Source: Actinomycetota bacterium (GTDB lineage: Bacteria; Actinomycetota; Thermoleophilia; RBG-16-64-13). Taken from it: 60,286 bases of DNA. A program made the translations under genes and the position numbers. Shown here piece after piece: positions 20,081 to 57,748 of the stretch (positions within the stretch are counted from its first letter, which is position 1; every line of letters starts with the position of its first letter). The stretch covers positions 1 to 60,286 of the forward strand of contig JAAYZX010000008.1 in the NCBI GenBank assembly GCA_012514635.1. Direction: 5' to 3'. A model generated the notes under the pieces. It saw only the letters and a list, made by a program, of their open reading frames with translations. It had not been told where the DNA came from and searched no databases.

Positions 20081-21280
20081 TCATCGTCTTAGTGGCACAC
20101 GTCCGGCCGAGTACCCGGCAATCGTGGATCTGACCTGCACACTCTCCAAGATTCCCACGGCCATCCAAAATACTACCAAAGATGAACTACCGAAGCTCAC
20201 AAAAGGCAGTGGCACCCCGGTCACAGGCATGATGCCTATGGTCATACCCACGTTCACAAACACCTGAAAAACCAATATCCCCGCAACTCCAGCAGCTATC
20301 AGACTTCCATAGAGACTGTTCGCCCGCCCGGCGATGCGCAGCATCCGCCATACCATAATGAGGTAGAGACCCAATAGAATCATGGCGCCGAGAAATCCCA
20401 ACTCCTCACCTATTACCGAGAAGATGAAGTCTGTGTGATGCTCCGGAAGGAAGTTCAAGTGGGTCTGAGTACCTTCCATGAACCCTTTGCCCGTGTACAT
20501 ACCGCTGGCCACCGCGATACGACTCTGGGTCAGTTGGTACCCCCATCCCGAGGTGTCATGTTCCGGATTCAAGAAGACCATCAGTCTTTGCAGCTGATAG
20601 TCTTTCAGCACCTGAACGCCCATGGCGGGTAGCGCACGCAAGACGGTCAATGCCCCCAACGCACCGGCCGTCGCTAAGACCACAGCATGCCGCCAATGGA
20701 TACCCCAGACCAAGAACATGGACATCAGAACCGCTGCAAACACAAGCGCCGTGCCCAGATCCGGCTCCAAATACACAAGAATGATGGGAATCACAACGTA
20801 GCCGACGGCCAGCAACACAAAGCGGAACCTATTCCGCAACTCCACGCCATCGGCCAAAAACGCAGCCAGGGTCACCACGATCAGCACCTTGCTGACTTCT
20901 GCCGACTGCACCTCGAAGAACGGCAGCGCGATCCAACGATGAGCACCGCTACGACCTTCCCCCACTATTAGCGTAAGCACAAGTAGCAGGATCATGCCGG
21001 CGTAGATGAACTTATGCCACCGCGCATAGCGCTCGTAGTCGATAAGGCTCAAGACGATAGCTACCACTATCCCCAACGCCAGACCAATGGACTGCGCGCG
21101 GACGTAATGCAAAGATGCGCCTTGGCCGGGATCGGCATGCGTGGCGGAGTAGATCATGGCCAAGCCAAACCCGCTCACAGCCAATGCAGCCAAGAACAAT
21201 AGCCAGTCGAAGGAGCGCAGGTAGGCTCCAAATGTCAGCCATGTGCCCCGCCGCGGACCCACCTGTTCAAGAATTCTCAC
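20081..21280 (-). CDS. rodA: RodA, SEDS peptidoglycan glycosyltransferase
   Basis: Integral membrane enzyme that polymerises lipid II for side-wall growth with PBP2. 399 residues with about ten membrane segments; family motifs include YLEPDLGTALVF, the large extracellular loop with QSRIAVASGMYTGKGF, FLPEHHTDFIFSVIGEELGF, and the C-terminal PFVSFGSSSLV. The start overlaps the mrdA stop by 4 bp (ATGA). Its place beside mrdA and mreBCD marks it as the elongasome SEDS protein rather than FtsW. Confidence 0.95.
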   Translation of the reverse strand: MRILEQVGPRRGTWLTFGAYLRSFDWLLFLAALAVSGFGLAMIYSATHADPGQGASLHYVRAQSIGLALGIVVAIVLSLIDYERYARWHKFIYAGMILLLVLTLIVGEGRSGAHRWIALPFFEVQSAEVSKVLIVVTLAAFLADGVELRNRFRFVLLAVGYVVIPIILVYLEPDLGTALVFAAVLMSMFLVWGIHWRHAVVLATAGALGALTVLRALPAMGVQVLKDYQLQRLMVFLNPEHDTSGWGYQLTQSRIAVASGMYTGKGFMEGTQTHLNFLPEHHTDFIFSVIGEELGFLGAMILLGLYLIMVWRMLRIAGRANSLYGSLIAAGVAGILVFQVFVNVGMTIGIMPVTGVPLPFVSFGSSSLVVFWMAVGILESVQVRSTIAGYSAGRVPLRR

Positions 21281-23172
21281 TCCGTAGCCTCGATGTCTCC
21301 CAATCCCGTATCGCCGGTACGGAAGTATGCCTCCATAACCCTGCGTACCACCGGTGCTGCTACGTTAGAGCCATGACCGCCCTTCTCTATCAGGGCCACA
21401 ACCACAATCTCCGGGTTGTCGATGGGAGCGTAGCCTACAAACCAGGCGTAGTCGTCATCGGGTAGCTTCTCCGCCGTCCCGGTCTTGCCCGCTACCGCAA
21501 TGGGGAACCCCTTCCACGCCTCGTGCGCGGTGCCCAGCGGATCCGATGTCACCATCTCCAGCCCCTTGTAAAGAGCTGCGTAGGTGTCCCCGGCAAGATC
21601 AAGCTCGCCCCGCACCTCCGTTTGAAACTCGTGGATAATACTCCCCGATGGATCCGTGATCTGCCGCCCCAGGTGCGGAACCAGCACCTTGCCTTTGTTG
21701 GCCACAGCCGAATACGCCACCGCCAACTGGAGGGGTGTTACCAACAGATATCCTTGGCCGATACAGAGGTTTACGTCATCACCGGGAGTCCAGATCTTCA
21801 ATTCATCGGTCTCCCCAAACTGACGTTTCCAATCTTTGTCGGGGACGCGTCCCCGGCTCTCTCCGGGTAAGTCGATACCGCTGGTCTGCCCAAATCCAAA
21901 ACGACGCACCCCCTCCTGAAGCACGGGGCCTTCCTGCTGGAAGAAGATCTCGCCCAGCTGGTAGAAGAAAACGTCGCACGACTCCATGATGGCCTCAACC
22001 AGATTGACCTCACCGTGGCCGTCGATATTCCAACACCTAAGCATTTGGTCGCTGACCGTGTACCTTCCCGTACAGTTGGCCAATGTGTCCCACCCCACCA
22101 AACCCTCACGTAGGGCCGTAGCCGCAACGAACGTCTTGAAGGTGGAGGCCGCTGGATACAGCCCGTTGGCGGCTCGGTTGAAGAGGGGATTCTTGGCAGC
22201 GGGATCGTTGAGCATTTCGTAGTTCTTCTCGCTAATGCCGCCCACCCAGACCGACGGATCGTAGTCAGGATAAGAAGTCATGGCCATTATTTCACCCGTT
22301 CGGGGATCCATGGCCACCACCACTCCGGCGTCCGCTTCCTCAAAGTCGCCGGCGTGTGCGCGCTCTATACCTTCCACAATCGCCTGCTCGGCCGCCTCTT
22401 GAAGCTGGCTGTCTATTGTAAGAATCAAGTTGTTCCCGGGGATAGGATTGTCCGTCTCCAACAACTGCTTGGGACGACCATCGGCATCCACCTCAATCTG
22501 TCGTCTACCATCGATCCCTCTAAGGAAAGAATCGTACGACGACTCCACTCCGCCCTTGCCCACCTGCGCACCGGCAGAGAGCGTACGGAACCGCTCCTCA
22601 TTCAGCTCATCCTCCGAGATTTCACCCACATACCCCAGGATATGAGCGGCAAACGGTCCGCGCGGATAGCTGCGCAGATACGACTTCTGAACCCGTACGC
22701 CCGGGAATTCAAGACTATGTTCCTTCAGATAGGCCACCGTAGGGGTCTCCGACACGTCCTCCGCCAGCACCACTACTCGATAAGGGTCCTGTTGTTTCGC
22801 CTTGTCCACTTTGGCCTTGATGTCCTCATAAGGAACATCCAGCACACCGGCCAGTCTGGCCAACACGTCGGACCCGTTCTTGAGGTCCATGGGCAGCACG
22901 CCTACGCTTAGTCCCGCTCTATTCTCCACCAAGACCTCGCCGTCGCGGTCCTTGACAACTCCCCGCGGTGCCTCCAAAGACACGGTCCGCACACGGTTGT
23001 CATTAGCCAATGACACGTAGTGGTCGCCCGACAACACCTGCAGGAACCACAAACGAAAGACGATGATGCCGAAGAGCACCACAACGATGCCCAGGAACAC
23101 TCCCAACCGAATCCCGGTTGAAGGATCTTCTGAAGGGGGCCTGTGTTTCTTGGCCGGCTCCAGATACACCAC
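21277..23172 (-). CDS. mrdA: PBP2 (MrdA), elongasome transpeptidase
   Basis: Class B penicillin-binding protein that cross-links side-wall peptidoglycan with RodA. About 631 residues from the GTG at 23172, which has a GTGAGGG site 7 nt upstream and falls after the mreD stop; the frame stays open to a TTG at 23241, but that overlaps mreD and lacks a binding site. One membrane anchor at about 20-45, a dimerisation domain, then the catalytic motifs STFK (Ser343), SCD (398-400, the PBP2-type variant of SxN) and KTGT (563-566). Confidence 0.95.
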   Translation of the reverse strand: MVYLEPAKKHRPPSEDPSTGIRLGVFLGIVVVLFGIIVFRLWFLQVLSGDHYVSLANDNRVRTVSLEAPRGVVKDRDGEVLVENRAGLSVGVLPMDLKNGSDVLARLAGVLDVPYEDIKAKVDKAKQQDPYRVVVLAEDVSETPTVAYLKEHSLEFPGVRVQKSYLRSYPRGPFAAHILGYVGEISEDELNEERFRTLSAGAQVGKGGVESSYDSFLRGIDGRRQIEVDADGRPKQLLETDNPIPGNNLILTIDSQLQEAAEQAIVEGIERAHAGDFEEADAGVVVAMDPRTGEIMAMTSYPDYDPSVWVGGISEKNYEMLNDPAAKNPLFNRAANGLYPAASTFKTFVAATALREGLVGWDTLANCTGRYTVSDQMLRCWNIDGHGEVNLVEAIMESCDVFFYQLGEIFFQQEGPVLQEGVRRFGFGQTSGIDLPGESRGRVPDKDWKRQFGETDELKIWTPGDDVNLCIGQGYLLVTPLQLAVAYSAVANKGKVLVPHLGRQITDPSGSIIHEFQTEVRGELDLAGDTYAALYKGLEMVTSDPLGTAHEAWKGFPIAVAGKTGTAEKLPDDDYAWFVGYAPIDNPEIVVVALIEKGGHGSNVAAPVVRRVMEAYFRTGDTGLGDIEATE

Positions 23173-23212
23173 TAATCGGCCCTCACTTGAAGCATGCGTG
23201 AAGTTCCACCCA

Positions 23213-23746
23213 TCACCGCTTGGACATCCCTCCGGGTTCAAGCCTGCGTACGAGCTTGAGGCGCACCAACCCCAAATACAAAGGCGCCACCAAGAGACCG
23301 TTCACCACCGCCGCCGGCAATACCTGACGCCAAACCATGGTGAAAAACGGCGCCCTGTTGCCGGTGAGAAATTGGAAGACCGCATACACCCATTGCCCAA
23401 GCAGAGTGGCCACCGCCGTGAGAGCCACCACCGCCCACGCGCTGTACGGGGGCATCCATTCCGCATAGCGACCGCTCAGATACCCCACCAGAAGATAGAT
23501 CAGAGCACGAAGGCCGATTGGATCCATGAAGATGATATCTGCCAACAGCCCGCTCACAAACCCGAACACCGCTCCCGCCAACGAGCCCCGAGTCATGCCC
23601 ACCAGCACGGGGAGCATGAGAAACACATCGGCGGTCACTCCAAGCACCGTCAAGCGCGAGGTGAGTACCGCCTGCAATGCAACGGCCAATATCAGGAGTA
23701 GGCTGAGCCGCAAAACCTCCAGCAACCGTTCACGGGGTGTCATCAC
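23213..23746 (-). CDS. mreD: MreD, rod-shape membrane protein
   Basis: 177 residues and about five hydrophobic helices; polytopic partner of MreC in the elongation complex. MreD sequences are poorly conserved, so the call rests on topology, size and order: the gene lies 2 bp after mreC and just before mrdA and rodA. Confidence 0.9.
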   Translation of the reverse strand: MMTPRERLLEVLRLSLLLILAVALQAVLTSRLTVLGVTADVFLMLPVLVGMTRGSLAGAVFGFVSGLLADIIFMDPIGLRALIYLLVGYLSGRYAEWMPPYSAWAVVALTAVATLLGQWVYAVFQFLTGNRAPFFTMVWRQVLPAAVVNGLLVAPLYLGLVRLKLVRRLEPGGMSKR

Positions 23747-23748
23747 GG

Positions 23749-24678
23749 TTATCTGCCCCCTGAGCCAGGTTGAATCCCTGTCGGCAGTTTCTTGGTCTGG
23801 ACATCACCGGATTGCGAAACGGTTGTCAACACCATCACTTCTTCCAGGGAGCGCACCTCCACGAACGGCTGCACCTCAATGGTCTTATAGATGTTGACGT
23901 CCTCCTCCCCCACGCTGACAACCTTGCCGACAGGGATGCCCTTGGGAAAGATTTGACCGGATCCGGACGTAATGACTACGGCCTCCAGCTCAACGAGTTG
24001 ATCACGCTCTACGAAGTCCATGAGTAGGCTGCCGGTAACGGTGCCTTCTAGAATACCCTCGGCCCTGGTGCCCTGGATCAGAGCGGCCACGCTGGATTCC
24101 GGATCGGAAATCAACTGTACCTGGGCGGAGTGCGCGGTCACCGCCACCACCTTACCTACCAGACCCTTACCGGACAGGGAGTCGCCCGCCTTACCGGCCG
24201 CCCCAACCACCGGTTGATTGACCGCCAGCCCGTCCGCCGTACCCTTGTCAACCTGGACCCAGTTCTGCCAGCGAGTAGGAGACCTACCGATCACGCGCGC
24301 CACGCAGTAGGTGGATCCGGCGGGGAAGATGCCGGATTGCTGGAATTCAAGGAGACGCTTGAGGCGTTCGTTCTCTTCTGCCGCCTCCTGCATCTGCACA
24401 ACCTGACCGCGCAGTTCCTCCAACTCGGATGCCAGCTCTCTGTTTTCCTCGTAAGCCGACCACACCCCGGTCACGTAACGCCAGGCATCCTGGAACGGCT
24501 GCACCGCTCGAGTGGCCACTGACTGGATGGGAGACATGGCACCAAGGCCACCCTGCTGCACACTGTGCAGCGCGCCATCCGATGCTTCCCGGAGGAAAAG
24601 CGTGATGAATATGAGAGATATGATGACCAGCGCTGTCAGTACCAGCCTGCGCCGGCCTAACTCCTTCTGTGGCTGCAT
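23749..24678 (-). CDS. mreC: MreC, rod-shape scaffold protein
   Basis: 309 residues: one N-terminal membrane segment (about 10-30), a coiled coil (about 75-110) with EENERLKRLLEF, and the beta-rich periplasmic domain with GRSPTRWQNWVQVDKGTADG and GLVGKV. MreC activates PBP2-RodA and links them to MreB filaments. It ends 2 bp before mreD. Confidence 0.95.
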   Translation of the reverse strand: MQPQKELGRRRLVLTALVIISLIFITLFLREASDGALHSVQQGGLGAMSPIQSVATRAVQPFQDAWRYVTGVWSAYEENRELASELEELRGQVVQMQEAAEENERLKRLLEFQQSGIFPAGSTYCVARVIGRSPTRWQNWVQVDKGTADGLAVNQPVVGAAGKAGDSLSGKGLVGKVVAVTAHSAQVQLISDPESSVAALIQGTRAEGILEGTVTGSLLMDFVERDQLVELEAVVITSGSGQIFPKGIPVGKVVSVGEEDVNIYKTIEVQPFVEVRSLEEVMVLTTVSQSGDVQTKKLPTGIQPGSGGR

Positions 24679-24697
24679 GGGTGATGCCCCCCGCTAG

Positions 24698-25741
24698 CTA
24701 GTAGCGGCGTCTGCGTCCCCTTTGTGAACTCCGATGCAGAGTCTCGAACTCCTCCAACGAACGCCCCGACCCCACGGCCACACAGGTCAATGGCGATTCC
24801 GCGAGGTGCACAGGCATCTGGGTTTCCTGGCGAATGCGCTCAGTGAAGCCACACAACAACGAACCACCTCCCGCCATCATGATGCCTCGGTCCATGATGT
24901 CCGACGCCAATTCGGGCGGGGTCTTATCCAAAGTAGCTTTAAGCGCATCCACTATTGCGGCCACCGGCTCAGCAATAGCTTCCCGAACTTCTTCGGAGGA
25001 TATGACAACAGTCTTAGGGAGACCGGTGACGAGGTCACGTCCCCGTATCTCCGCCTGCTCTTCTTCCGGAGTAGGTAACGCCGAGCCGATCTCGAGCTTG
25101 AGCTCTTCCGCAGTCTGCGTCCCAATCATGAGTTTGTACTCTTTCTTCACGAAAGAGATGATGGCTTCATCCAGTTCGTCACCACCCACGCGAACCGACT
25201 GCGCGGTGACGATTCCGCCCAATGCGATGACGGCCACCTCACTGGTTCCACCACCTATATCGACAATCATGCTGCCCGTAGGCTCGCTGACCGGCAGTCC
25301 TGCACCAATAGCCGCCGCCATGGGCTCTTCGATAAGATACGCGGCGCGCGCACCCGCTGAGATGGTGGCTTCTTCAACCGCACGCCGCTCCACCCCGGTA
25401 ACTCCAGAAGGAACACAAACGACTACTCGAGGGTGGGCCCACCGGTTCTGGTGCACCTTCTGGATGAAATGTCGCAGCATCTGTTCAGTAACGTCGAAAT
25501 CTGCAATCACCCCATCCTTGAGAGGGCGAATGGCCGTGATGGTACCCGGGGTACGCCCCAGCATCAACTTGGCCTCTGCCCCTACGGCATGGATTTCGCC
25601 GCTACGGGAATCGATAGCCACAACCGACGGCTCCGAGAGCACAATGCCCCGACCCCTCACATAGACAAGCGTATTAGCCGTGCCAAGGTCGACAGCCATG
25701 TCACGCCCGCCGAAACCGGTCAGCCAATCAAAAAAGGCTAT
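24698..25741 (-). CDS. mreB: MreB actin-like cell-shape protein, apparently with an AUA start codon
   Basis: Actin-fold ATPase that steers side-wall synthesis. The nucleotide motifs are clear (MAVDLGTANTLVYV, IVDIGGGTSEVAVIALGG, MAGGGSLL). The only conventional start is ATG 25699, but the 14 codons upstream encode AFFDWLTGFGGRD, the membrane-binding amphipathic N-terminus typical of MreB, and AAGGAG stands at 25749-25754, exactly 7 nt before an ATA at 25739-25741. An in-frame TGA closes the frame at 25760-25762; the only other candidate is a CTG without a binding site. I annotate ATA as the start (347 residues); from ATG it would be 333. Confidence 0.9.
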   Translation of the reverse strand: MAFFDWLTGFGGRDMAVDLGTANTLVYVRGRGIVLSEPSVVAIDSRSGEIHAVGAEAKLMLGRTPGTITAIRPLKDGVIADFDVTEQMLRHFIQKVHQNRWAHPRVVVCVPSGVTGVERRAVEEATISAGARAAYLIEEPMAAAIGAGLPVSEPTGSMIVDIGGGTSEVAVIALGGIVTAQSVRVGGDELDEAIISFVKKEYKLMIGTQTAEELKLEIGSALPTPEEEQAEIRGRDLVTGLPKTVVISSEEVREAIAEPVAAIVDALKATLDKTPPELASDIMDRGIMMAGGGSLLCGFTERIRQETQMPVHLAESPLTCVAVGSGRSLEEFETLHRSSQRGRRRRY

Positions 25742-48706: not shown

Positions 48707-48769
48707 TACAGGACCGCGGACGGCAATCGCTAAGAGTTCCACTCCCCCCACGGACCCATGATTATGCGG

Positions 48770-48775
48770 TACCCT
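48770..48775 (+). promoter_or_regulatory. -10-like TACCCT exactly 6 nt before the pafB ATG
   Basis: TACCCT then AGATGC then ATG (48782). It has the same TANNNT-N6-ATG geometry as addB on the opposite strand, and no Shine-Dalgarno. Confidence 0.5.
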
Positions 48776-48781
48776 AGATGC

Positions 48782-49807
48782 ATGGCCAAAGACGATGAGA
48801 AGACCTTGCGCCAGCTGTCTCTCCTTTCATTCTTGTTGGACGCGCGACGGCCCGTTACCGCTCAGGAGGTCATGGAGTGTGTCGAAGGCTATGCCGGTAT
48901 GACCGCTCAGAACTTCAAAAGACGATTCTTCGACGACCGCGAAGATCTGCGCCGGGTAGGAATCGGCATCGAACGCATGACGAGCCCCCGGTTAGGACCC
49001 GGGGAGGCATTCTATCTGTCCGACGAGGACTACCGACTTCCCGACCTCTCATTGTCAAGAGAGGAATACTCCGCCCTTGTGTCGGCACGAATCCTGCTCC
49101 AAGGCCGCTTTCCTTACGAAAAACCACTGCATCTGGCTTTAGCAGCACTGAGCGGTGCTCAGGGCCACCCCCTGCCGACTGATGGTACTCATCTCGTACA
49201 GCACATCACCGTACGAGAGGGTATCGATGACTCGGAAGACCTGCGCACGCGACTCAACCGGCTGGAAGCCGCTTGGCAGTCTCAGAAAAGCGTCCGCTTC
49301 CTTTACCATGGAGTCGGCTCCGACGAACCCACAGAGCGAACAATAGATCCGTACGGACTCTTTTTATTGGACGGCCATTGGTACGTGGTTGGACGCGATC
49401 ATGACAAAGCGGCGCTCCGCATGTTCCGAGTCGATAGAATCCAAGGCAGGATCCATTACCGCACTAAAAAGCCCCACGACTTCCCTCCGCCCACCGATTA
49501 CGAGCCGGAGCAGTTCAAAGCCAGACCCCCTTGGTTGATAGGAGAACCTGTGGGAAAGGCAGATATCGTGGTGGGTTCCCAGCTAGACTGGTGGGTCACC
49601 CGTACCTACGGCAGACATGTCGCCGACAGTCGTCCTACTGAAGAGGGAACTCAATTCACGCTTCCCTACGCTGACCCTGATCCGCTACTGGCCTGGGTCG
49701 TCACTTGGCACAAACACGTGCGTCTCACAGGACCGACCTACCTGATGGAACGCCTACTTAACGGTCTGCGGGCGGCAATCGAACTCCACCTGGAGACGGC
49801 GACGTGA
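48782..49807 (+). CDS. pafB: PafB-like WYL-domain transcriptional regulator
   Basis: 341 residues: N-terminal winged helix (TLRQLSLLSFLLDARRPVTAQEV), a middle linker, a WYL domain (about 170-235; VRFLYHG, DPYGLFLLDGHWYVVGRDHD, MFRVDRI) and a C-terminal WCX-type extension. In mycobacteria PafB with PafC activates most DNA-damage genes independently of LexA. The ATG at 48782 fits the family start. It is followed by pafC with a 4-bp overlap and is divergent from addB. No proteasome or Pup-ligase gene is nearby. Confidence 0.85.
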   Translation: MAKDDEKTLRQLSLLSFLLDARRPVTAQEVMECVEGYAGMTAQNFKRRFFDDREDLRRVGIGIERMTSPRLGPGEAFYLSDEDYRLPDLSLSREEYSALVSARILLQGRFPYEKPLHLALAALSGAQGHPLPTDGTHLVQHITVREGIDDSEDLRTRLNRLEAAWQSQKSVRFLYHGVGSDEPTERTIDPYGLFLLDGHWYVVGRDHDKAALRMFRVDRIQGRIHYRTKKPHDFPPPTDYEPEQFKARPPWLIGEPVGKADIVVGSQLDWWVTRTYGRHVADSRPTEEGTQFTLPYADPDPLLAWVVTWHKHVRLTGPTYLMERLLNGLRAAIELHLETAT

Positions 49808-50769
49808 TCCACACCTGTGGAGTCACTCCCGAACGGGTGGCGCAGATCCTTGGGTTGCTGAGCTACCTTCTGCGCGACCCCGAGACCCTCCGTATACCGC
49901 TTGACACCATAGAACGCGATCTCGGTTTGTCGCGCGCCGAGATTATCGAGGACATCTCTATCCTCAATCTTGTGAATTTCGGAGGCGGCACGTATCTCAT
50001 CTATGTTCGCGAGGAGAAAGGCCAACTCATAATCGACCGAGAACCGCTGGGAGAGAACATGCAGTATCCGGCACGCCTCTCCCCTACTCTGGCGCGTTCA
50101 CTGCTCCTGGCGTTGGAACTGGTGGGCGACGTTGTGGCACCGGATTCGGCCGCCGGGTTGCGCGCAAAACTGATAGAAGCACTTGCCGGCGACCTCCAGC
50201 AACTTCCCCTCATCGAGACCGGCCTCGTCCTGCAGCCGTCCAACGTGGTGATGAATGCACTGGCTACCGCTATCCGAGGGCGACGAGTGGTTCAACTGGA
50301 ATACTATTCAGCCGCCAGAGGCAGTCTCACTTTTCGCCATGTCGAGCCGGAACTACTGCGCTCTTCGGGACAGGCCTGGTACCTGGAGGCCTACTGTCAA
50401 TCCGCATGCGGGTCCCGCACTTTCCGGGTGGATCTCATCAGGAGCTCACGGATCCTCGACGAAACATTCTCTCCAAGAACTGAACCGGACGCTGAGCCGG
50501 GCACAGACCCACTCCCATTGGACACCGGCGCTCCCGATTGGGCTACCCTGGCGTTCGATTCCGACCGCGAGACCGACCTCCGCTCGTGGGGTACCCCTTT
50601 CCAGAAAAGAGGCGACGGACGCTTCGTTGTAGAAACGCCATACTTTGATGACGAATGGCTCGTGGGGCAAGTGCTGGCCGCGCTCGGCACAGCGGAGCTG
50701 GAGAGTCCACAAACCCTTCGCCAAGACGTAGCGCGCGCAGGAAAAGCACTCTTGGCGACGTATTCGTGA
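49804..50769 (+). CDS. pafC: PafC-like WYL-domain transcriptional regulator
   Basis: 321 residues from a GTG that overlaps the pafB stop by 4 bp. It has the N-terminal winged helix of the pair (RVAQILGLLSYLLRDPE, DLGLSRAEIIEDISIL), then a WYL domain (VVQLEYYSAARGSLTFRHVEPELL, WYLEAYCQ, TFRVDLIRS) and a C-terminal extension with an acidic Pro-rich insert. PafB and PafC normally act as a heterodimer. Confidence 0.85.
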   Translation: MIHTCGVTPERVAQILGLLSYLLRDPETLRIPLDTIERDLGLSRAEIIEDISILNLVNFGGGTYLIYVREEKGQLIIDREPLGENMQYPARLSPTLARSLLLALELVGDVVAPDSAAGLRAKLIEALAGDLQQLPLIETGLVLQPSNVVMNALATAIRGRRVVQLEYYSAARGSLTFRHVEPELLRSSGQAWYLEAYCQSACGSRTFRVDLIRSSRILDETFSPRTEPDAEPGTDPLPLDTGAPDWATLAFDSDRETDLRSWGTPFQKRGDGRFVVETPYFDDEWLVGQVLAALGTAELESPQTLRQDVARAGKALLATYS

Positions 50770-50825: not shown

Positions 50826-51194
50826 TTGCGACTCATCCTGCGCTGGATAATCAACACGCTGGCCATCCTGGCCATTACCAAGCTTCTGCCCGCCATCCAA
50901 ATTGAAGCACTCTGGGTGGCCGTGGTAGCCGCACTTGTCCTTGGACTGTTAAACACTTTCGTGCGGCCCATTCTCGTTGTGGCCACGTTGCCGCTGAACG
51001 TCCTCACACTTGGGCTCTTTACTTTGGTGCTGAACGGTCTGATCCTTCAGATTATCGATTGGATCATGGGCTCCCGCATGTCCATAGCCAACTTCGGTTG
51101 GGCGATCCTGGGAGCGCTGCTGATCTCCATTATCACCGGCGCGATCAACATCATCGTGGGAGGTGACCGACGCATCGACCGCAGCCGGCGTTGA
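50826..51194 (+). CDS. Small membrane protein, YvlD/phage-holin-4_2 family
   Basis: 122 residues and four hydrophobic helices: ILRWIINTLAILAITKLLP, then ALVLGLLNTFVRPILV, PLNVLTLGLFTLVLNG, and FGWAILGALLISIITGAINII. This is the common four-helix holin superfamily IV found chromosomally in most phyla, not evidence of phage. It uses a TTG start with AAAGGAG 5 nt upstream. It lies 56 bp after pafC. Confidence 0.85.
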   Translation: MRLILRWIINTLAILAITKLLPAIQIEALWVAVVAALVLGLLNTFVRPILVVATLPLNVLTLGLFTLVLNGLILQIIDWIMGSRMSIANFGWAILGALLISIITGAINIIVGGDRRIDRSRR

Positions 51195-51786: not shown

Positions 51787-52875
51787 TTACTCAAGCAATG
51801 AGACCTCGTATCCTCTGGACTGCACCATAAGCTTGAAGTCGTGGGGGGTGGTGGCCACCTGCACGGCTTCCTGCAGGGTAACGACGCCGGCTGCATACAG
51901 CTGCAGCAGACTCTGGTCGAAGGTTTGCATGCCGTAGAAGTCGCCTTCTTTGATGGCGGTCTCGATGTTGTGAGTCTGGGCCGGATCCAGAATGAAGTCT
52001 CGGATGCGTCCGGTCATGATCATAACCTCCACCGCCGGAGCACGACCGGCACCATCTGCGCGTTGGAGAAGTCGCTGGGATATAATGCCGCGAAGAGAGC
52101 CCGCCAGCATAATCCGTACCTGTTTTTGCTGATACAGTGGGAAGAAGTCGATGATGCGGTTCACGGTCTCAGTGGCATCTATAGTGTGAAGGGTGCTCAA
52201 CACGAAGTGACCGGTCTGCGCCGCCGTCAGAGCAGTCCGCACAGTTTCCAGGTCTCGCATCTCTCCAATGAGGATGACGTCCGGATCCTGCCGTAGCACG
52301 TACTTCAACGCAGAGGCATAGGACTCGGTATCGAGACCGACTTCCCGCTGATTGATGATAGAATTCTTGTCCTGATGCAGGATCTCGATAGGATCCTCGA
52401 TGGTCACGATATGCCGACGCATGAGGGTGTTGATGTAGTCGATCATGGTGGCAAGTGTGGTGGTCTTCCCAGACCCGGTAGTGCCGGTGACCAGGACCAT
52501 CCCCCGAGGCTCCAGAGCCAGTTTCTGGACGGAGGCCGGCAGCATCAGATCCTCAAAGGACGGAATGGAGCTGACTACCTGCCGCATCGCGATAGAAATG
52601 CTTCCACGTTGTCGATAGATGTTCACCCGGAAACGCCCCACTGCCGGCGCACTGTATGCGAAATCAATCTCGTTGGTCTCGCTGAAGTGCCTGATCTGTT
52701 TGTCGCTCATGAGCGAGGCGGCAAAGTCTTTGGTGTGCTCAGGAGTACACACCTCATCGTCCACAAGAATAAGCTCACCATCCACCCGCAGAACGGGTGG
52801 GCTACCACTCTTCAGATGCAGATCTGAGGCCCGTACTGCTACAGCTTCGGCCAACAGCTCTTCAATGGACTTCAT
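51787..52875 (-). CDS. pilT: PilT/PilU-type twitching ATPase
   Basis: Hexameric secretion ATPase that retracts type IV pili. 362 residues: N-terminal PAS-like domain (AVAVRASDLHLKSGSPPVLRVDG), Walker A TGTTGSGKTTT near residue 137, Asp box TIEDPIE, Walker B DVILIGEMRDLET, His box STLHTIDATE, and the retraction motif AGSLRGIISQRLL. No pilin, pilB or pilC is in the window. It overlaps the deacetylase-family gene by 14 bp. Confidence 0.94.
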   Translation of the reverse strand: MKSIEELLAEAVAVRASDLHLKSGSPPVLRVDGELILVDDEVCTPEHTKDFAASLMSDKQIRHFSETNEIDFAYSAPAVGRFRVNIYRQRGSISIAMRQVVSSIPSFEDLMLPASVQKLALEPRGMVLVTGTTGSGKTTTLATMIDYINTLMRRHIVTIEDPIEILHQDKNSIINQREVGLDTESYASALKYVLRQDPDVILIGEMRDLETVRTALTAAQTGHFVLSTLHTIDATETVNRIIDFFPLYQQKQVRIMLAGSLRGIISQRLLQRADGAGRAPAVEVMIMTGRIRDFILDPAQTHNIETAIKEGDFYGMQTFDQSLLQLYAAGVVTLQEAVQVATTPHDFKLMVQSRGYEVSLLE

Positions 52876-53896
52876 CCAGCACGCTCCAGTGCTCGCGAAG
52901 AGCGTTCACAGTGGACGTCACTTCCGCATGATCCGAATCGGATACCTCAGGGATGAAGTTCACCACACGCCCCGCCAGTCCTTCAAGCGTGCGCACAACA
53001 GATCCGGCGAGCAGCTCCGGTTCATATCCGCCCTCGAGGAAGCATACGGGGCCCGCTGCCTCCAGCTCGTCGGCCATCTGCGCAAAACGAAGTGCCATCC
53101 AATGGAAAGCGTCGGCCGACAAGCGAAGACCTCCAAGAGGGTCTCCCTGCTGAGAGTCGTAACCACTGGAGATCAACACCAATCCGGGCCGAAATTCCCG
53201 CGCCATGGGCTCCAGCACGGCTTCGAACAGATGCTTGACGAGGCCGTCACCAGCGCCGTGACTAAGAGGAACATTCATTGTGAAGCCCTTTCCGGGACCG
53301 GCTCCCACCTCAAAAGCGGCCCCAGTGCCCGGATAGTGGTTCCGCAGATGCATGCTGGCATACAATACGGTAGGATCCTGATAGAAGGCGTCCTGAGTAC
53401 CGTTCCCATGGTGCACATCCCAGTCGAAGATGAGCACCCTCTCCACCCCAAGCTCAGCCCGTGCATAGGCCGCAGCCACGGCCACATTATTGAAAATACA
53501 GAAGCCCATTCCCCGTGACCGTACGGCATGATGTCCCGGCGGACGCACAAGTAGGAATGCACGTTCGCCTACAGATACAGCCCTCTTTACCGCCTCCACT
53601 CCGGCTCCGGCCGCCAGTAATGCAGCCTCATACGAGGCTGGGGACACATGCGTATCCATGTCCAGAGCGCCGCCACTCCGATCGGCCAGCCTCTCCACGG
53701 ACTGGATATATTCAGGCGCGTGCACACGGGCGACCTGAGCGGTAGTGGCCGGAGACGGCTCACGCCACTCAAAGGGAACATCTGCGGAGGCGAGTGCGCG
53801 CCGAGCCGCTACCAGTCTCACGGAAGACTCAGGATGCCATGCCCCGGTATCGTGGTCTAGAAAGCGCTCGTGGAAGTACACGGACAGAGCCACCAT
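52862..53896 (-). CDS. Histone deacetylase-family (AcuC/acetylpolyamine amidohydrolase-like) enzyme
   Basis: Zinc amidohydrolase. 344 residues with all class signatures: RPPGHHA with the active-site His pair, GFCIFNNVAVAA, FDWDVHHGNGTQDAF with metal-binding Asp and His, and LISSGYDSQQGDPLGG with the second Asp. Substrates in bacteria are acetyl-lysine on enzymes such as acyl-CoA synthetases, or acetylpolyamines. An acyl-CoA synthetase gene lies 4 kb away, so AcuC-like control of it is possible but unproven. Confidence 0.92.
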   Translation of the reverse strand: MVALSVYFHERFLDHDTGAWHPESSVRLVAARRALASADVPFEWREPSPATTAQVARVHAPEYIQSVERLADRSGGALDMDTHVSPASYEAALLAAGAGVEAVKRAVSVGERAFLLVRPPGHHAVRSRGMGFCIFNNVAVAAAYARAELGVERVLIFDWDVHHGNGTQDAFYQDPTVLYASMHLRNHYPGTGAAFEVGAGPGKGFTMNVPLSHGAGDGLVKHLFEAVLEPMAREFRPGLVLISSGYDSQQGDPLGGLRLSADAFHWMALRFAQMADELEAAGPVCFLEGGYEPELLAGSVVRTLEGLAGRVVNFIPEVSDSDHAEVTSTVNALREHWSVLDEVH

Positions 53897-53941: not shown

Positions 53942-55111
53942 TTATTGGTACATTCGCCGAGCACCGGCGTAGTCGCCGCGGTCTATGCTGTTGATTCGCA
54001 CCGACGCTCCAGTGTAGGGAGCATGAATCATATTCCCATTACCCACGTAGATTCCAACATGGTGAATGCTGGACCCAAAGAACACCACATCACCGGGCTG
54101 GAGATCGCTACGGGCCACCGACTGTCCATACCTGAACTGCCAGGCGGCGAAATGCGGTAGTTCGATCCCAACTTGTCGGAAGACATAAGTCACCAGCCCG
54201 GAGCAGTCGAAACCGCTGAGAGATTCTCCGGCCCAGACGTAGGGTACGCCCTGGCATTGCATAGCCACCTCAACAACCCGCCCTCCGATACCAGACGAAG
54301 GCAGATCGGTACGAGGCGCCTGAGCGACCGGTGCGCTGGAACCACCACCCCCGCTGGATCCTGAACCACCGGAAGCCGGACGCTGCGGAGCCCTGGATGC
54401 CGCCGCTCGTTCGGCCGCCAATCTGGCGGCTTCTCGAGCTTCCTCCTCCAAGCGGGCCTGGCGCTCGGCCTCTTCGCGCTCCAACTGTTCGATTTCCTGC
54501 CTCTTGTCGGCCAAGAGCGCTTCCCTCTGGGCCAGCTTGGACTCCACGTTGGCGGCAGTAGCCTTTGTTTCCTCGAGCAAGGCCTGCTGATCCATCTGGT
54601 CCTGTGCCAGCTTCTCTTTGGTGGTCTGGACCTTGTCACGGTAGACAGTCACCTGCTCAAAAACATCGGCATCGCTACGCCCCAGGCGCATGAGCAGATC
54701 AAAGCGATTGAAGAAATCCGACAGCGACTCGGCACTAAGCAGGGCCTCGATTAGGGACATGCGCCCTTCCCGATAGATTGCCCCAACCCGTGAGGTCAAA
54801 CGCTCCGATGCAGTGTCTAAATCTTCCTCAGCCTGCTGAAGAAGCGCAGTGTTCTTTTCAAGCTCCGCTTCCGTGGCGGCCAGTCTAGCTCTGGCACCGT
54901 TGTAGGCCTCGATAGCCACCTCGAGCTCGATGGCAGTGGATTCGATAAGGGCTCTCAGCTCATTCGCTTCTCGTTTAGCCTGGGTGATCTGCGCAGGCTC
55001 TGCCTTGGCCATATCCGCCACGCACAGAGGAGATATTAGAAGAGAGAGGAAGAAGACGAGAAGGATGCCTGTGAGACGTCCTCTGGTTGTGGCTTTGGTC
55101 CTGATGGTCAT
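53942..55111 (-). CDS. Secreted NlpC/P60 peptidoglycan hydrolase with coiled coil (RipA-like)
   Basis: 389 residues from ATG 55111 (GGGGAGG lies very close before it; an upstream GTG at 55132 lacks a site). Signal peptide about 1-37, long coiled coil (about 40-245), a Gly/Ser/Pro linker, then the NlpC/P60 domain with Cys303 (GFDCSGLV), His351 (HHVGIYVG) and His363 (MIHAP). It cuts D-Glu to diamino-acid bonds in stem peptides; the coiled coil probably keeps it inactive until FtsEX- or RipA-like activation. Downstream of the CwlM-like gene after a 116-bp gap. Confidence 0.93.
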   Translation of the reverse strand: MTIRTKATTRGRLTGILLVFFLSLLISPLCVADMAKAEPAQITQAKREANELRALIESTAIELEVAIEAYNGARARLAATEAELEKNTALLQQAEEDLDTASERLTSRVGAIYREGRMSLIEALLSAESLSDFFNRFDLLMRLGRSDADVFEQVTVYRDKVQTTKEKLAQDQMDQQALLEETKATAANVESKLAQREALLADKRQEIEQLEREEAERQARLEEEAREAARLAAERAAASRAPQRPASGGSGSSGGGGSSAPVAQAPRTDLPSSGIGGRVVEVAMQCQGVPYVWAGESLSGFDCSGLVTYVFRQVGIELPHFAAWQFRYGQSVARSDLQPGDVVFFGSSIHHVGIYVGNGNMIHAPYTGASVRINSIDRGDYAGARRMYQ

Positions 55112-55227
55112 TGCCTCCCCATGAGTTGTCACGCCGGGGGCCTAGCAGTCTCTACTTGCAGGCCAACCCATTCCATAAGTCTACCATGAGAATTCTTTCG
55201 TTGCATAACTGCAGGCCCCTTTTTTTC

Positions 55228-56292
55228 TCAAAGGCGCTCCAAAAAGGCCCTGAGTCCTGCTGCTATGGCCTCCGCCTCCGCCTGCACACCCTCATCGCGG
55301 CCCAGTGATCCGCCCTCATGCGCATTACTGATGAAGCCGGGTTCCACTAAGACAGATACGCAGGGAGTCTCGCGCAGGCAGGGATATCCTCGACCGTGGG
55401 TGTGCAAATCCACCCTCCCCAAAATGTCCACCAGGGCCTTGACTATGTAGCCGGCAAGTCGCCTTCCTGATTCAGAGACGTACGAGCCCCGTTGGAAATA
55501 GTAGGTTGCGGCCCCGCTCGCCTGTGGGTTGCGATGCCATCCGTGCGCGATACTGATGAGGATCTGTGGTGATGCCGCTTGGGCAACCTCGGCCCTCTCG
55601 TACGGCCCCAATTCCACATCGCTTCTGCGGATCAACGTAACATCCGCACCGGATGACCTCAACCGCGATTCCAGCGCTCCGGCCACCGCCAGATTGACTT
55701 CTTTCTCCATGAGTCCCGCTACACCGCAGCCACCCACCTGATTGCCCCCCCGCAGTGCATCAACGGCTACGCAAAGACCTTCCAAACCAACCGGACCAAC
55801 GTAGCCGTTGTGACGATCCGGTACCGTCTTCTTGCCTTCCGGGGCCGCTTTCTTCAGACGCTTCAACTGTGCGATAGTGGCCTCACCCACCATGCCGTCG
55901 GTGTTGAGACCGGTGTTGCGTTGAAATTCGATCAACGCATCTTCTGTCTGCTGACGGAACACGCCGTCCTCAGAACCGCAATCGAACCCCAGTTCGTCGA
56001 GAATCTGTTGAATGGCGAGTACGTCATCCCCACGCATGGGGGGCTGACGCAGATACAAGAGCCTGTCGCCCAGCCGATCTCCCGCCTCCACGAGCTCAGT
56101 CCATGTGTTATCGGCGACGATTCCATCCGCCAGAAGAAGTCGCTGCTGCTGAAACGCCTTAACGGCCAGCTCGGTGTACGGTCCGAAGAAACCATCCACA
56201 CCTTCGCGGCCTACAAAATGACCGAGAGAACGCAGACGCTTCTGGATATCCAGAACCTCTTTGCCTCTATTGCCGCGACTGACCGGTCGCAC
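55228..56292 (-). CDS. Signal-less peptidoglycan-binding/amidase_3 protein with a broken zinc site (CwlM-like)
   Basis: 354 residues from GTG 56292 (GGAGGTG 7 nt upstream). Two PG_binding_1 repeats (about 8-72 and 85-150) precede an amidase_3 fold (about 170-354). The usual DpGHGG zinc motif reads DALRGG (178-183), so the first zinc His is gone; the Glu of the EVNLAV helix (198) and the C-terminal Glu317 (VEPGFIS) remain, and the second His is displaced (SIAHGWH, His250). No signal peptide is present. This is the architecture of mycobacterial CwlM, a cytoplasmic, inactive amidase homologue that controls MurA. The functional link is inference. Confidence 0.8.
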   Translation of the reverse strand: MRPVSRGNRGKEVLDIQKRLRSLGHFVGREGVDGFFGPYTELAVKAFQQQRLLLADGIVADNTWTELVEAGDRLGDRLLYLRQPPMRGDDVLAIQQILDELGFDCGSEDGVFRQQTEDALIEFQRNTGLNTDGMVGEATIAQLKRLKKAAPEGKKTVPDRHNGYVGPVGLEGLCVAVDALRGGNQVGGCGVAGLMEKEVNLAVAGALESRLRSSGADVTLIRRSDVELGPYERAEVAQAASPQILISIAHGWHRNPQASGAATYYFQRGSYVSESGRRLAGYIVKALVDILGRVDLHTHGRGYPCLRETPCVSVLVEPGFISNAHEGGSLGRDEGVQAEAEAIAAGLRAFLERL

Positions 56293-56360
56293 AAGAAACA
56301 CCTCCAGCGATTACACACTGCGTGGCGGCGCGCCAGCTATGACGTAGGGCTCGCCGCCAT

Positions 56361-56366
56361 ATTATA
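56361..56366 (-). promoter_or_regulatory. Strong -10 box TATAAT upstream of the CwlM-like gene
   Basis: Consensus TATAAT on the minus strand, 68 nt before the GTG at 56292; no good -35. It probably starts the transcript through the NlpC/P60, deacetylase and pilT genes. The 202-bp gap between midA and the CwlM-like gene shows nothing else. Confidence 0.55.
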
Positions 56367-56494
56367 ACCCAGCCTACAGCCCACTCTTAGAGCCGCGGAG
56401 ATGAGCCACCGTCACTGCTCCATCAACGGCCGGGACTCAAAGCCTGATTAGAAATGGGCTCAGTCTAGCACCCGCACCACAGCCTCCGCTGAAT

Positions 56495-57748
56495 CTATTC
56501 CCGTACCTGCACCATTACCCGATAGAGACCGCCCACATCCTCTGGGTCGAGCAACCTCTCCGCGTAGAAAGCTTCTCGATCCAGATCCAGGCCGTTACGC
56601 GTGGATGCATCCACTCCGTCTACCTGCCTGCTCTCTGTCCTTAACGCCTCTACCTCAGCACGGCCACCTGCAGCGGCAGTCAAGTTTGCAATCGTCGTGT
56701 AGAGAATGCAGTCAAATCCCAAACGGCGACCGTGAAGTTCCAGTGCTCCAAAATCTACATCCGCAGTCAGATCCTGACGACCTACGTGGGAATACAGGTC
56801 ATGGCGTCGTTCATGACGAAGATACCCCCGTATCGTCCGTTGATATCGGCGGTCGGGCGCACTGCCGCCCTCAAACAACGCCGGCCGAGCAGGTAGGCCA
56901 CCGTAGTCCACCGTCACTACGCAGCCTGACCCCATCCCCCGGGCAATCGAGGCAAGGAAGTCCCGCATCGCCGGGCGCACTTCCACAACACCATCCGCCG
57001 AAAAAGGGCGTATATCGGCCGGCTGCACTGTTCCGAACAGTTCCGTAAGCTCGGATAGAGCCTCGGGGCAGGGATGGGACCACACCTCCGCCAACTCCTC
57101 TTCCGTTGCATCCATTTCCACCCATGCTTCGCGGACGCGATCCCCATCCACATTCAGAATATGAATGGGCAGCGCATCGACCAGTTCGTTCGTAACGACC
57201 ACCCGCGGCTCCGAGATGCAAGAGTCAGGCGTCGCACCCCATTCCACCGTCCAACCCGCCGCTAACGCCCAAGCAAGTGCCTTCTGCTGCCTCGCCATCA
57301 GATGGCGTCCGACGTCCAGCAGACGCCAGCGTACCCGCGGGCGCAGATCCGGTCTCACGGAATCCCACGTCTTGAGTATTCCGGCCGCCATATCACCCCT
57401 GCCTCCCCCTATCTCCCAGATAGAGACGGGGAGTCCATTTCCAGCGGTGTCGAGGAGGGCATCGACCAGATCAGCCACGAGAGATGCCATGGCGCGGTTG
57501 AAGAGGGGGATACGCGCGGGCACAGTAACGAAGTCTCCACTGCGCCCGAACTGTCTCTCGCCGCGCGTGTAGTAGCCGGCTTCGGCATCGGTCAGCGCCA
57601 GCTCCATGAAACGAGCGAACGAGACCCGTCCACCGGCGGCGCGGATCGCCGCTGCGATGGAGGCGGGAAGGCCGTGGAGGGTTGAAGGGTGGTCGCCCGC
57701 CGGCGGCGTTCCGCCGGCGGCGGCTCCACCGTCGCTCTTCTCAGCCAT
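56495..57748 (-). CDS. MidA/NDUFAF7-family SAM-dependent methyltransferase
   Basis: 417 residues from ATG 57748 (AGGTGA 5 nt before it; a GTG at 57757 is in frame). Gly/Ala/Pro-rich N-terminal tail, then ISFARFMELAL-type start (here VSFARFMEL), GYYT, SAM loop IWEIGGGRGDMA, and the family motif TNELVDALPIH. The mitochondrial member methylates an arginine of complex I; bacterial targets are unknown. It overlaps the end of the acyl-CoA synthetase gene by 8 bp. A 10-bp palindromic hairpin encodes part of the tail. Confidence 0.9.
   Translation of the reverse strand: MAEKSDGGAAAGGTPPAGDHPSTLHGLPASIAAAIRAAGGRVSFARFMELALTDAEAGYYTRGERQFGRSGDFVTVPARIPLFNRAMASLVADLVDALLDTAGNGLPVSIWEIGGGRGDMAAGILKTWDSVRPDLRPRVRWRLLDVGRHLMARQQKALAWALAAGWTVEWGATPDSCISEPRVVVTNELVDALPIHILNVDGDRVREAWVEMDATEEELAEVWSHPCPEALSELTELFGTVQPADIRPFSADGVVEVRPAMRDFLASIARGMGSGCVVTVDYGGLPARPALFEGGSAPDRRYQRTIRGYLRHERRHDLYSHVGRQDLTADVDFGALELHGRRLGFDCILYTTIANLTAAAGGRAEVEALRTESRQVDGVDASTRNGLDLDREAFYAERLLDPEDVGGLYRVMVQVRE
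57697..57720. repeat. 10-bp palindromic hairpin in the midA N-terminal tail
   Basis: CCGCCGGCGG at 57697-57706 recurs at 57711-57720 around CGTT; each copy is itself self-complementary. It encodes the Gly/Pro-rich N-terminal tail. Confidence 0.7.

Follow-up and report, generated by a model that had tools for sequence, protein, structure and literature searches.

A CwlM-like protein with a degenerate zinc site and no phospho-tail in a deep lineage of Actinomycetota

The window, the whole 60,286-nucleotide stretch of Actinomycetota DNA analysed here, encodes a protein that is likely an orthologue of mycobacterial CwlM (Rv3915 / MSMEG_6935). We favour, with moderate confidence, the reading that it is a tail-less, non-catalytic cytoplasmic orthologue, which would scaffold or gate the supply of peptidoglycan precursors without a phospho-tail switch. 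Mycobacteria cannot do without CwlM, which they are known to control through a phosphorylated tail and a charged interface with MurA. An orthologue with neither the tail nor the charged REEEL site, found alongside a PASTA kinase and FhaA cluster in one genome, would make it possible to study what CwlM did ancestrally apart from the kinase switch. The sequence-only reading of this DNA had proposed that the mycobacterial regulatory logic extends to a deep lineage. Judged from sequence, that reading is partly supported: its observation is sound, and it does not amount to a demonstrated PknB-CwlM-MurA switch, the tested sequence features of which are missing.

Cytoplasmic CwlM homologues, with the zinc site intact or degenerate, were known before across Actinobacteria, according to the accessible part of Boutte 2016 (PMC4946905). 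The present data extend this to deep uncultured lineages, where no sampled row in any of four clades has the tail motif; also new are the counts of altered zinc sites and of NlpC/P60 neighbours given below. Neither a tail-less form nor a linkage to NlpC/P60 was found in the CwlM literature, as represented by titles and abstract openings with few subscription journals.

Architecture and zinc site

The cwlM-like gene occupies positions 55228..56292 on the minus strand, as had been read from the letters, and encodes 354 amino acids between a GTG start at 56292 and a stop at 55228-55230. The open reading frame was called as 55228-56301 on the minus strand, and GTG 56292 is the likely start within it. 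Upstream of this GTG are a likely ribosome-binding site, GGAGG, at a distance of 8 nt (56301..56305, minus strand), and, close by, an in-frame TAA. The proteins of relatives open with MRPVxxG exactly at this position, their start codons having been chosen by a script close to the aligned start. The TAA and the shared start position leave no room for an upstream signal peptide. No hydrophobic segment was found in the protein, in which 19-residue Kyte-Doolittle means peak at 1.05 overall and at 0.34 within the first 60 residues; the same measure reaches 2.5 at the N-terminus of the neighbouring NlpC/P60 protein. From its start, the upstream stop and its hydropathy, the protein is predicted to stay in the cytoplasm. 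The lack of a signal peptide claimed earlier agrees with these data, and the search for an overlooked signal returned neither a hydrophobic N-terminus nor upstream coding room for one.

The protein is composed of two peptidoglycan-binding repeats, a linker, and an amidase domain, all encoded on the minus strand. Pfam matches PG_binding_1 in two stretches (E 4.9e-32). The first repeat is encoded by 56089..56277 (approximately residues 9-71 of P0001, an extent taken from phmmer rows) and the second by 55864..56034 (residues 90-146 of P0001, from Pfam). The Amidase_3 domain (55249..55770, residues 178-351 of P0001, Pfam E 3.9e-28) retains its fold. The AlphaFold2 model, built from 40 rows, has a mean pLDDT of 91 and a pTM of 0.84, and the linker stretch 153-158 is the only one with a pLDDT below 50. 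Structures matched to the amidase part by Foldseek include AmiC2 (5emi, TMt 0.91), CwlV (1jwq, 0.88), and zinc-bound Rv3717 (4m6i, 0.79). Pfam confirms the two repeats that had been recognized in the letters, and Pfam, the model confidence, and Foldseek agree on the amidase_3 fold. CwlM has the same order of two peptidoglycan-binding repeats followed by Amidase_3, and likewise no signal.

The columns of the zinc site read R, E, A, E in the window protein and H, E, H, E in intact relatives. We assessed the site by alignment with AmiC2, CwlV, and the protein's own family, not by model geometry. Arginine replaces the first zinc histidine (codon 55750..55752, R181 from the GTG, R184 of P0001), the second ligand is a retained glutamate (55705..55707, E196 from the GTG, E199 of P0001), alanine replaces the second zinc histidine (55546..55548, A249 from the GTG, A252 of P0001), and the catalytic glutamate is kept (55342..55344, E317 from the GTG, E320 of P0001); all four codons are on the minus strand. 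The motif DALRGG, from which the loss of the first histidine had been deduced, indeed places arginine at that column. The second histidine is gone as well, beyond the single loss noted earlier, and the corresponding motif is SIAH in the window protein and SIHH in relatives. Because two of the three ligands H, E, H of an active Amidase_3 enzyme are lost, we read the protein as no amidase; to the extent that activity can be judged from sequence, it is very likely non-catalytic.

Within the family, both histidines are missing only from the window protein and its sister L007 (the same as L167, from a Gaiellales metagenome-assembled genome), which is 64% identical to it and has the site W, E, G, E; the site is still H, E, H, E in each of the remaining 15 rows. 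A sequencing error was considered as the source of the losses and rejected, since the frame is open across a run of seven G and the separately assembled L007 has also lost both histidines. The zinc-intact deep Actinomycetota homologues L008-L022 share the architecture, the PDR linker, the lack of a tail, and the gene order with the window protein, and differ in keeping the H, E, H, E set that the window protein and L007 have lost. The degenerate site resembles that of CwlM, as both have arginine at the first ligand; however, the catalytic glutamate kept in the window protein is aspartate in Mycobacterium-like rows.

Amidases of the AmiA/LytC type are exported enzymes. Those compared here (AmiC2, CwlV, and Rv3717) have the Amidase_3 fold of the window protein, but AmiC2 and CwlV have intact zinc ligands in the alignments. 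It is highly improbable that the window protein is exported in some unusual way and acts on the cell wall as a hydrolase with an alternative metal site. Its peptidoglycan-binding repeats, the secreted-type hydrolase encoded by the adjoining gene, and histidines 253 and 256 (P0001) close to the lost ligand would fit such an enzyme; against it stand the missing signal and the missing room for one, the identical first residue of the relatives, and the arginine at the first ligand position. EnvC-type regulators have a different fold and act outside the cytoplasmic membrane. They resemble the putative scaffold described here in that a dead hydrolase fold serves as a regulator, as stated in the accessible text of PMC4946905.

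Distribution, gene order, and zinc-site changes

Full-length copies are present in 17 of the 18 genomes of the window family, the one without a copy being 64% complete, as well as in all nine f3 genomes and all eight f6 genomes, one of the latter having its copy split into two matches. Sampling of five further families of the class, 26 genomes in all, yielded none, and the function is thus dispensable at that level. Genome G006 carries a second near-full-length copy (C256:989-2032, 42% identical) beside the usual one.

The search for relatives found 134 proteins, of which 80 were kept. The homologue set of 131 proteins (154 less 23 duplicates) leaves out proteins of 250 amino acids or shorter and loci L002-L006, L082, and L083. 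The window protein falls within a 17-row family clade (96*). The trees are quick and unrooted.

The orthology with CwlM is likely, as indicated by a chain of gene orders together with the architecture and the tree. The Mycobacterium-like rows, labelled so by their tail, the order of neighbouring genes, and a MurA motif, include L065-L067 and L069, with the site R, E, R, D and a 28-30-residue tail containing PTGTFTF. In the Mycobacterium-like locus L107 the order is murJ, trxB, trx, cwlM, parB, parA, jag, yidC, where the names are presumptive, assigned by gene order and sequence. The window gene adjoins an NlpC/P60 gene, whereas the CwlM gene adjoins trxB-trx and parBA; the order trxB-trx-cwlM-parB-parA is absent from the window and connects to it only through intermediates. 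L055, assigned to Candidatus Hakubella through its duplicate L194, has trxB and trx before the cwlM-like gene and a deacetylase gene after it. In the f19 clade, which includes Rubrobacter, a thioredoxin match lies upstream in 21 of 22 rows, and four rows have the deacetylase gene downstream (L036, L042, L045, and L199). The chain runs from trxB-trx-cwlM-parB (L107) through trxB-trx-cwlM-deacetylase (L055) to cwlM-NlpC-deacetylase in the window. Architecture, loss of the zinc site, and likely orthology uphold the earlier identification of the protein as CwlM-like, which fails for the phospho-tail and the REEEL site.

All four site residues are kept in 76 of the 131 homologues and altered in 55. 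At least 11 changes of the site state are needed on the tree of the repeats only (five forced by starred branches), and 10 on the whole-protein tree computed without the site columns (six forced), counts that give no direction because the trees are unrooted. Arginine at the first ligand position occurs in nine rows and needs six changes. A lost site is unlikely to be regained, so that losses should make up most of these changes. With all four residues kept in 76 homologues, much of the family may normally work as enzymes.

These counts also suit a different history, in which the protein is by origin a cytoplasmic muropeptide amidase, remains an enzyme of recycling or precursor trimming in most relatives, and is decaying in the window lineage, with little function left there. 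We regard this as unlikely. It draws on the 76 intact sites, on the start residue shared by family rows (with script-picked starts), and on the divergence between the window protein and L007, which are 81% identical in the repeat pair and 49% in the amidase domain; the latter value is about 3 SD below the 61% expected from the repeats, as calibrated on 105 intact, non-independent pairs. However, the frame, the start, and the ribosome-binding site are preserved, the fold is predicted with confidence, the repeat pair is strongly conserved, and the gene order is kept. Seven of 60 conserved amidase columns are changed in the window protein, compared with 0-10 of 60-66 in intact members. The amidase domain is 36.5% identical to 19 outgroup rows, within the 33.8-38.9% of intact relatives, and has not evolved faster by this measure. 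Evidence for an acceleration since the zinc loss is mixed, as identity within the pair is lower than expected and the outgroup comparison shows no speed-up; for the window protein we make no such claim. Elsewhere in the set, L061, L063, L072, and L220-L246, several of them from Acidimicrobiia, have an eroded amidase site and retain the peptidoglycan-binding pair.

Tail, linker, and partners of the mycobacterial switch

The C-terminal PTG/TGT phosphosite tail of CwlM is absent from the window protein, which ends in AGLRAFLERL, and from the other 16 family rows. A tail hidden behind a frameshift was considered and rejected, as all 17 rows end at the same place. No PTG or TGT was found past the amidase domain in 12 f3, nine f6, and 22 f19 rows. 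The motif occurs in all eight f31 rows, in two of three other Actinomycetes-type rows, and in one of the remaining 60, giving 11 of 131 homologues, 10 of them of Actinomycetes type. This rarity bears against the inference in Boutte 2016, in its accessible part, that CwlM phosphorylation may be ancestral in Actinobacteria (PMC4946905). The phospho-tail would instead be a later addition in Actinomycetes, the alternative being loss in the deep clades.

The conserved linker motif PDRHNGY (55801..55821, minus strand; PDR or PDK among relatives) is aligned with the mycobacterial REEEL, so that PDRH takes the place of the acidic interface with MurA. All 60 rows of clades f1, f3, f6, and f19 have P[DE][RK] at this place, and five of eight f31 rows have an RExE-type motif. 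Activation of MurA in vitro needs both E178/E179 of REEEL and the phosphorylated tail, as reported in the accessible part of Hunt-Serracin 2025 (PMC12723410).

The genome encodes the kinase-side partners of CwlM. A gene row on contig C58 comprises a kinase, FhaA (FhaA_N plus FHA domains), an FHA protein, a PP2C phosphatase, RodA/FtsW, a class B PBP, and a PknB-type kinase with four PASTA domains; genome-wide there are six Pkinase matches, five of them above the cut-off. The PASTA kinase, FhaA, and MurJ that the sequence-only reading proposed to search for are all present, together with the second FHA protein and the phosphatase. MurJ is 528 amino acids long with the MurJ domain reaching residue 465, and does not have the intracellular domain that binds CwlM. 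In mycobacteria, non-phosphorylated CwlM binds an intracellular linker of the long MurJ, according to the accessible part of Turapov 2018 (PMC6180346).

The murA gene is split over two contig ends (G000 C4 and C63; L153 and L152). Read by eye, MurA has GGC, with the catalytic cysteine, where Mycobacterium-like MurA has GGD; MurA was told from AroA by sequence motifs. At the predicted-interface arginines, located by spacing and by eye, MurA has lysine and asparagine, the latter in place of R355, which we tallied as one arginine lost. Sensitivity to fosfomycin is expected from a MurA of the cysteine type, and mycobacteria differ in this respect from bearers of such an enzyme. A cluster of MreB, MreC, PBP, and RodA genes at window positions 20081-25699, minus strand, makes it probable that the organism elongates with MreB, unlike mycobacteria, from which MreB is absent (PMC6180346, accessible part).

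The extension of mycobacterial logic proposed earlier holds for the kinase, FhaA, MurJ, the architecture, and the linkage to an NlpC/P60 gene, and breaks down at the tail, the REEEL site, the MurJ domain, and the MurA arginine. It is quite unlikely that the full logic operates nonetheless, with the PASTA kinase phosphorylating the protein elsewhere than in a tail, after which it would activate MurA and move from MurJ to FhaA. The likely orthology and the clustering of the 4-PASTA kinase, FhaA, second FHA protein, and phosphatase would accommodate this, but the tail is absent in 17 of 17 family rows, REEEL is absent, MurJ has no intracellular domain, MurA is of the cysteine type with asparagine at the R355 position, and CwlM requires both phosphorylation and REEEL in vitro in the available account (PMC12723410).

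Since the phospho-tail is missing, neither the PknB switch that depends on it nor docking to FhaA would be expected to work in the way known from mycobacteria. We hypothesize that the repeats, linker, and dead amidase body of the tail-less orthologue most likely serve as a scaffold in the cytoplasm, with a peptidoglycan precursor, a pathway protein (MurA, MurJ, or another), or both as ligand, and so would tune precursor supply; kinase input might come through another site or be absent. This regulatory role is argued by analogy with mycobacterial CwlM, whose tail and REEEL are missing here. In favour of the scaffold reading are the architecture, the fold and the missing signal, the loss of both histidines in two separate assemblies, the likely orthology, the presence in nearly every genome of the family, the better preservation of the repeat pair than of the amidase domain, and the C58 cluster; against it count the 76 homologues with an intact site, the outgroup comparison, and the absence from the other families sampled. 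As a tentative generalization, CwlM may have arisen early in Actinomycetota as a cytoplasmic sensor of, or scaffold for, peptidoglycan precursors, with the peptidoglycan-binding pair and linker rather than the amidase as its core, zinc catalysis lost many times independently, and a PknB tail acquired later and confined to Actinomycetes, the deep lineages controlling the same core in another way that is tied in expression to an NlpC/P60 cleavage enzyme.

The NlpC/P60 neighbour and surrounding genes

The next gene, 95 bp downstream of the cwlM-like gene on the same strand (53942..55132, minus), encodes an NlpC/P60 hydrolase with a PcsB-type coiled coil and a hydrophobic N-terminus. The NlpC/P60 gene had been described as RipA-like; the assignment to NlpC/P60 stands, and the protein is RipC-like rather than RipA-like, as its best NCBIfam model is RipC with 150 bits (below the model's cut-off of 425) and RipA scores 101 bits. 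The third gene of the conserved order (52862..53896, minus strand) encodes a histone-deacetylase-like protein.

In 29 of 131 loci the cwlM-like gene is followed on its own strand by an NlpC/P60 gene, a count to which six loci with less than 900 bp downstream could not contribute. These are 16 of 17 family loci (all except L022), nine of nine in the f6 clade, and L057, L061, L063, and L072; L061, L063, and L072 are decayed homologues that still have the neighbour. The gap and the conservation suggest that the cwlM-like and NlpC/P60 genes form an operon, by which precursor supply and wall cleavage by the secreted hydrolase might be expressed together. A promoter scan of 55050-56500 says little here: it returned no sigma-70-like site where 0.5 would be expected, and the 95-bp gap was free of terminator-like sites.

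Farther along the window, positions 50826-51194 encode a 122-residue protein matching Phage_holin_4_2, the phage link of which is not obvious. A PilT-like ATPase gene (T2SSE, 51787-52875) adjoins the deacetylase gene, and its cluster is found in seven of 21 regions. A pair of WYL-type regulators at 48758-50769, the first with a Pfam match, is presumably PafBC-like, and its cluster lies near the cwlM-like gene in nine of 21 regions.
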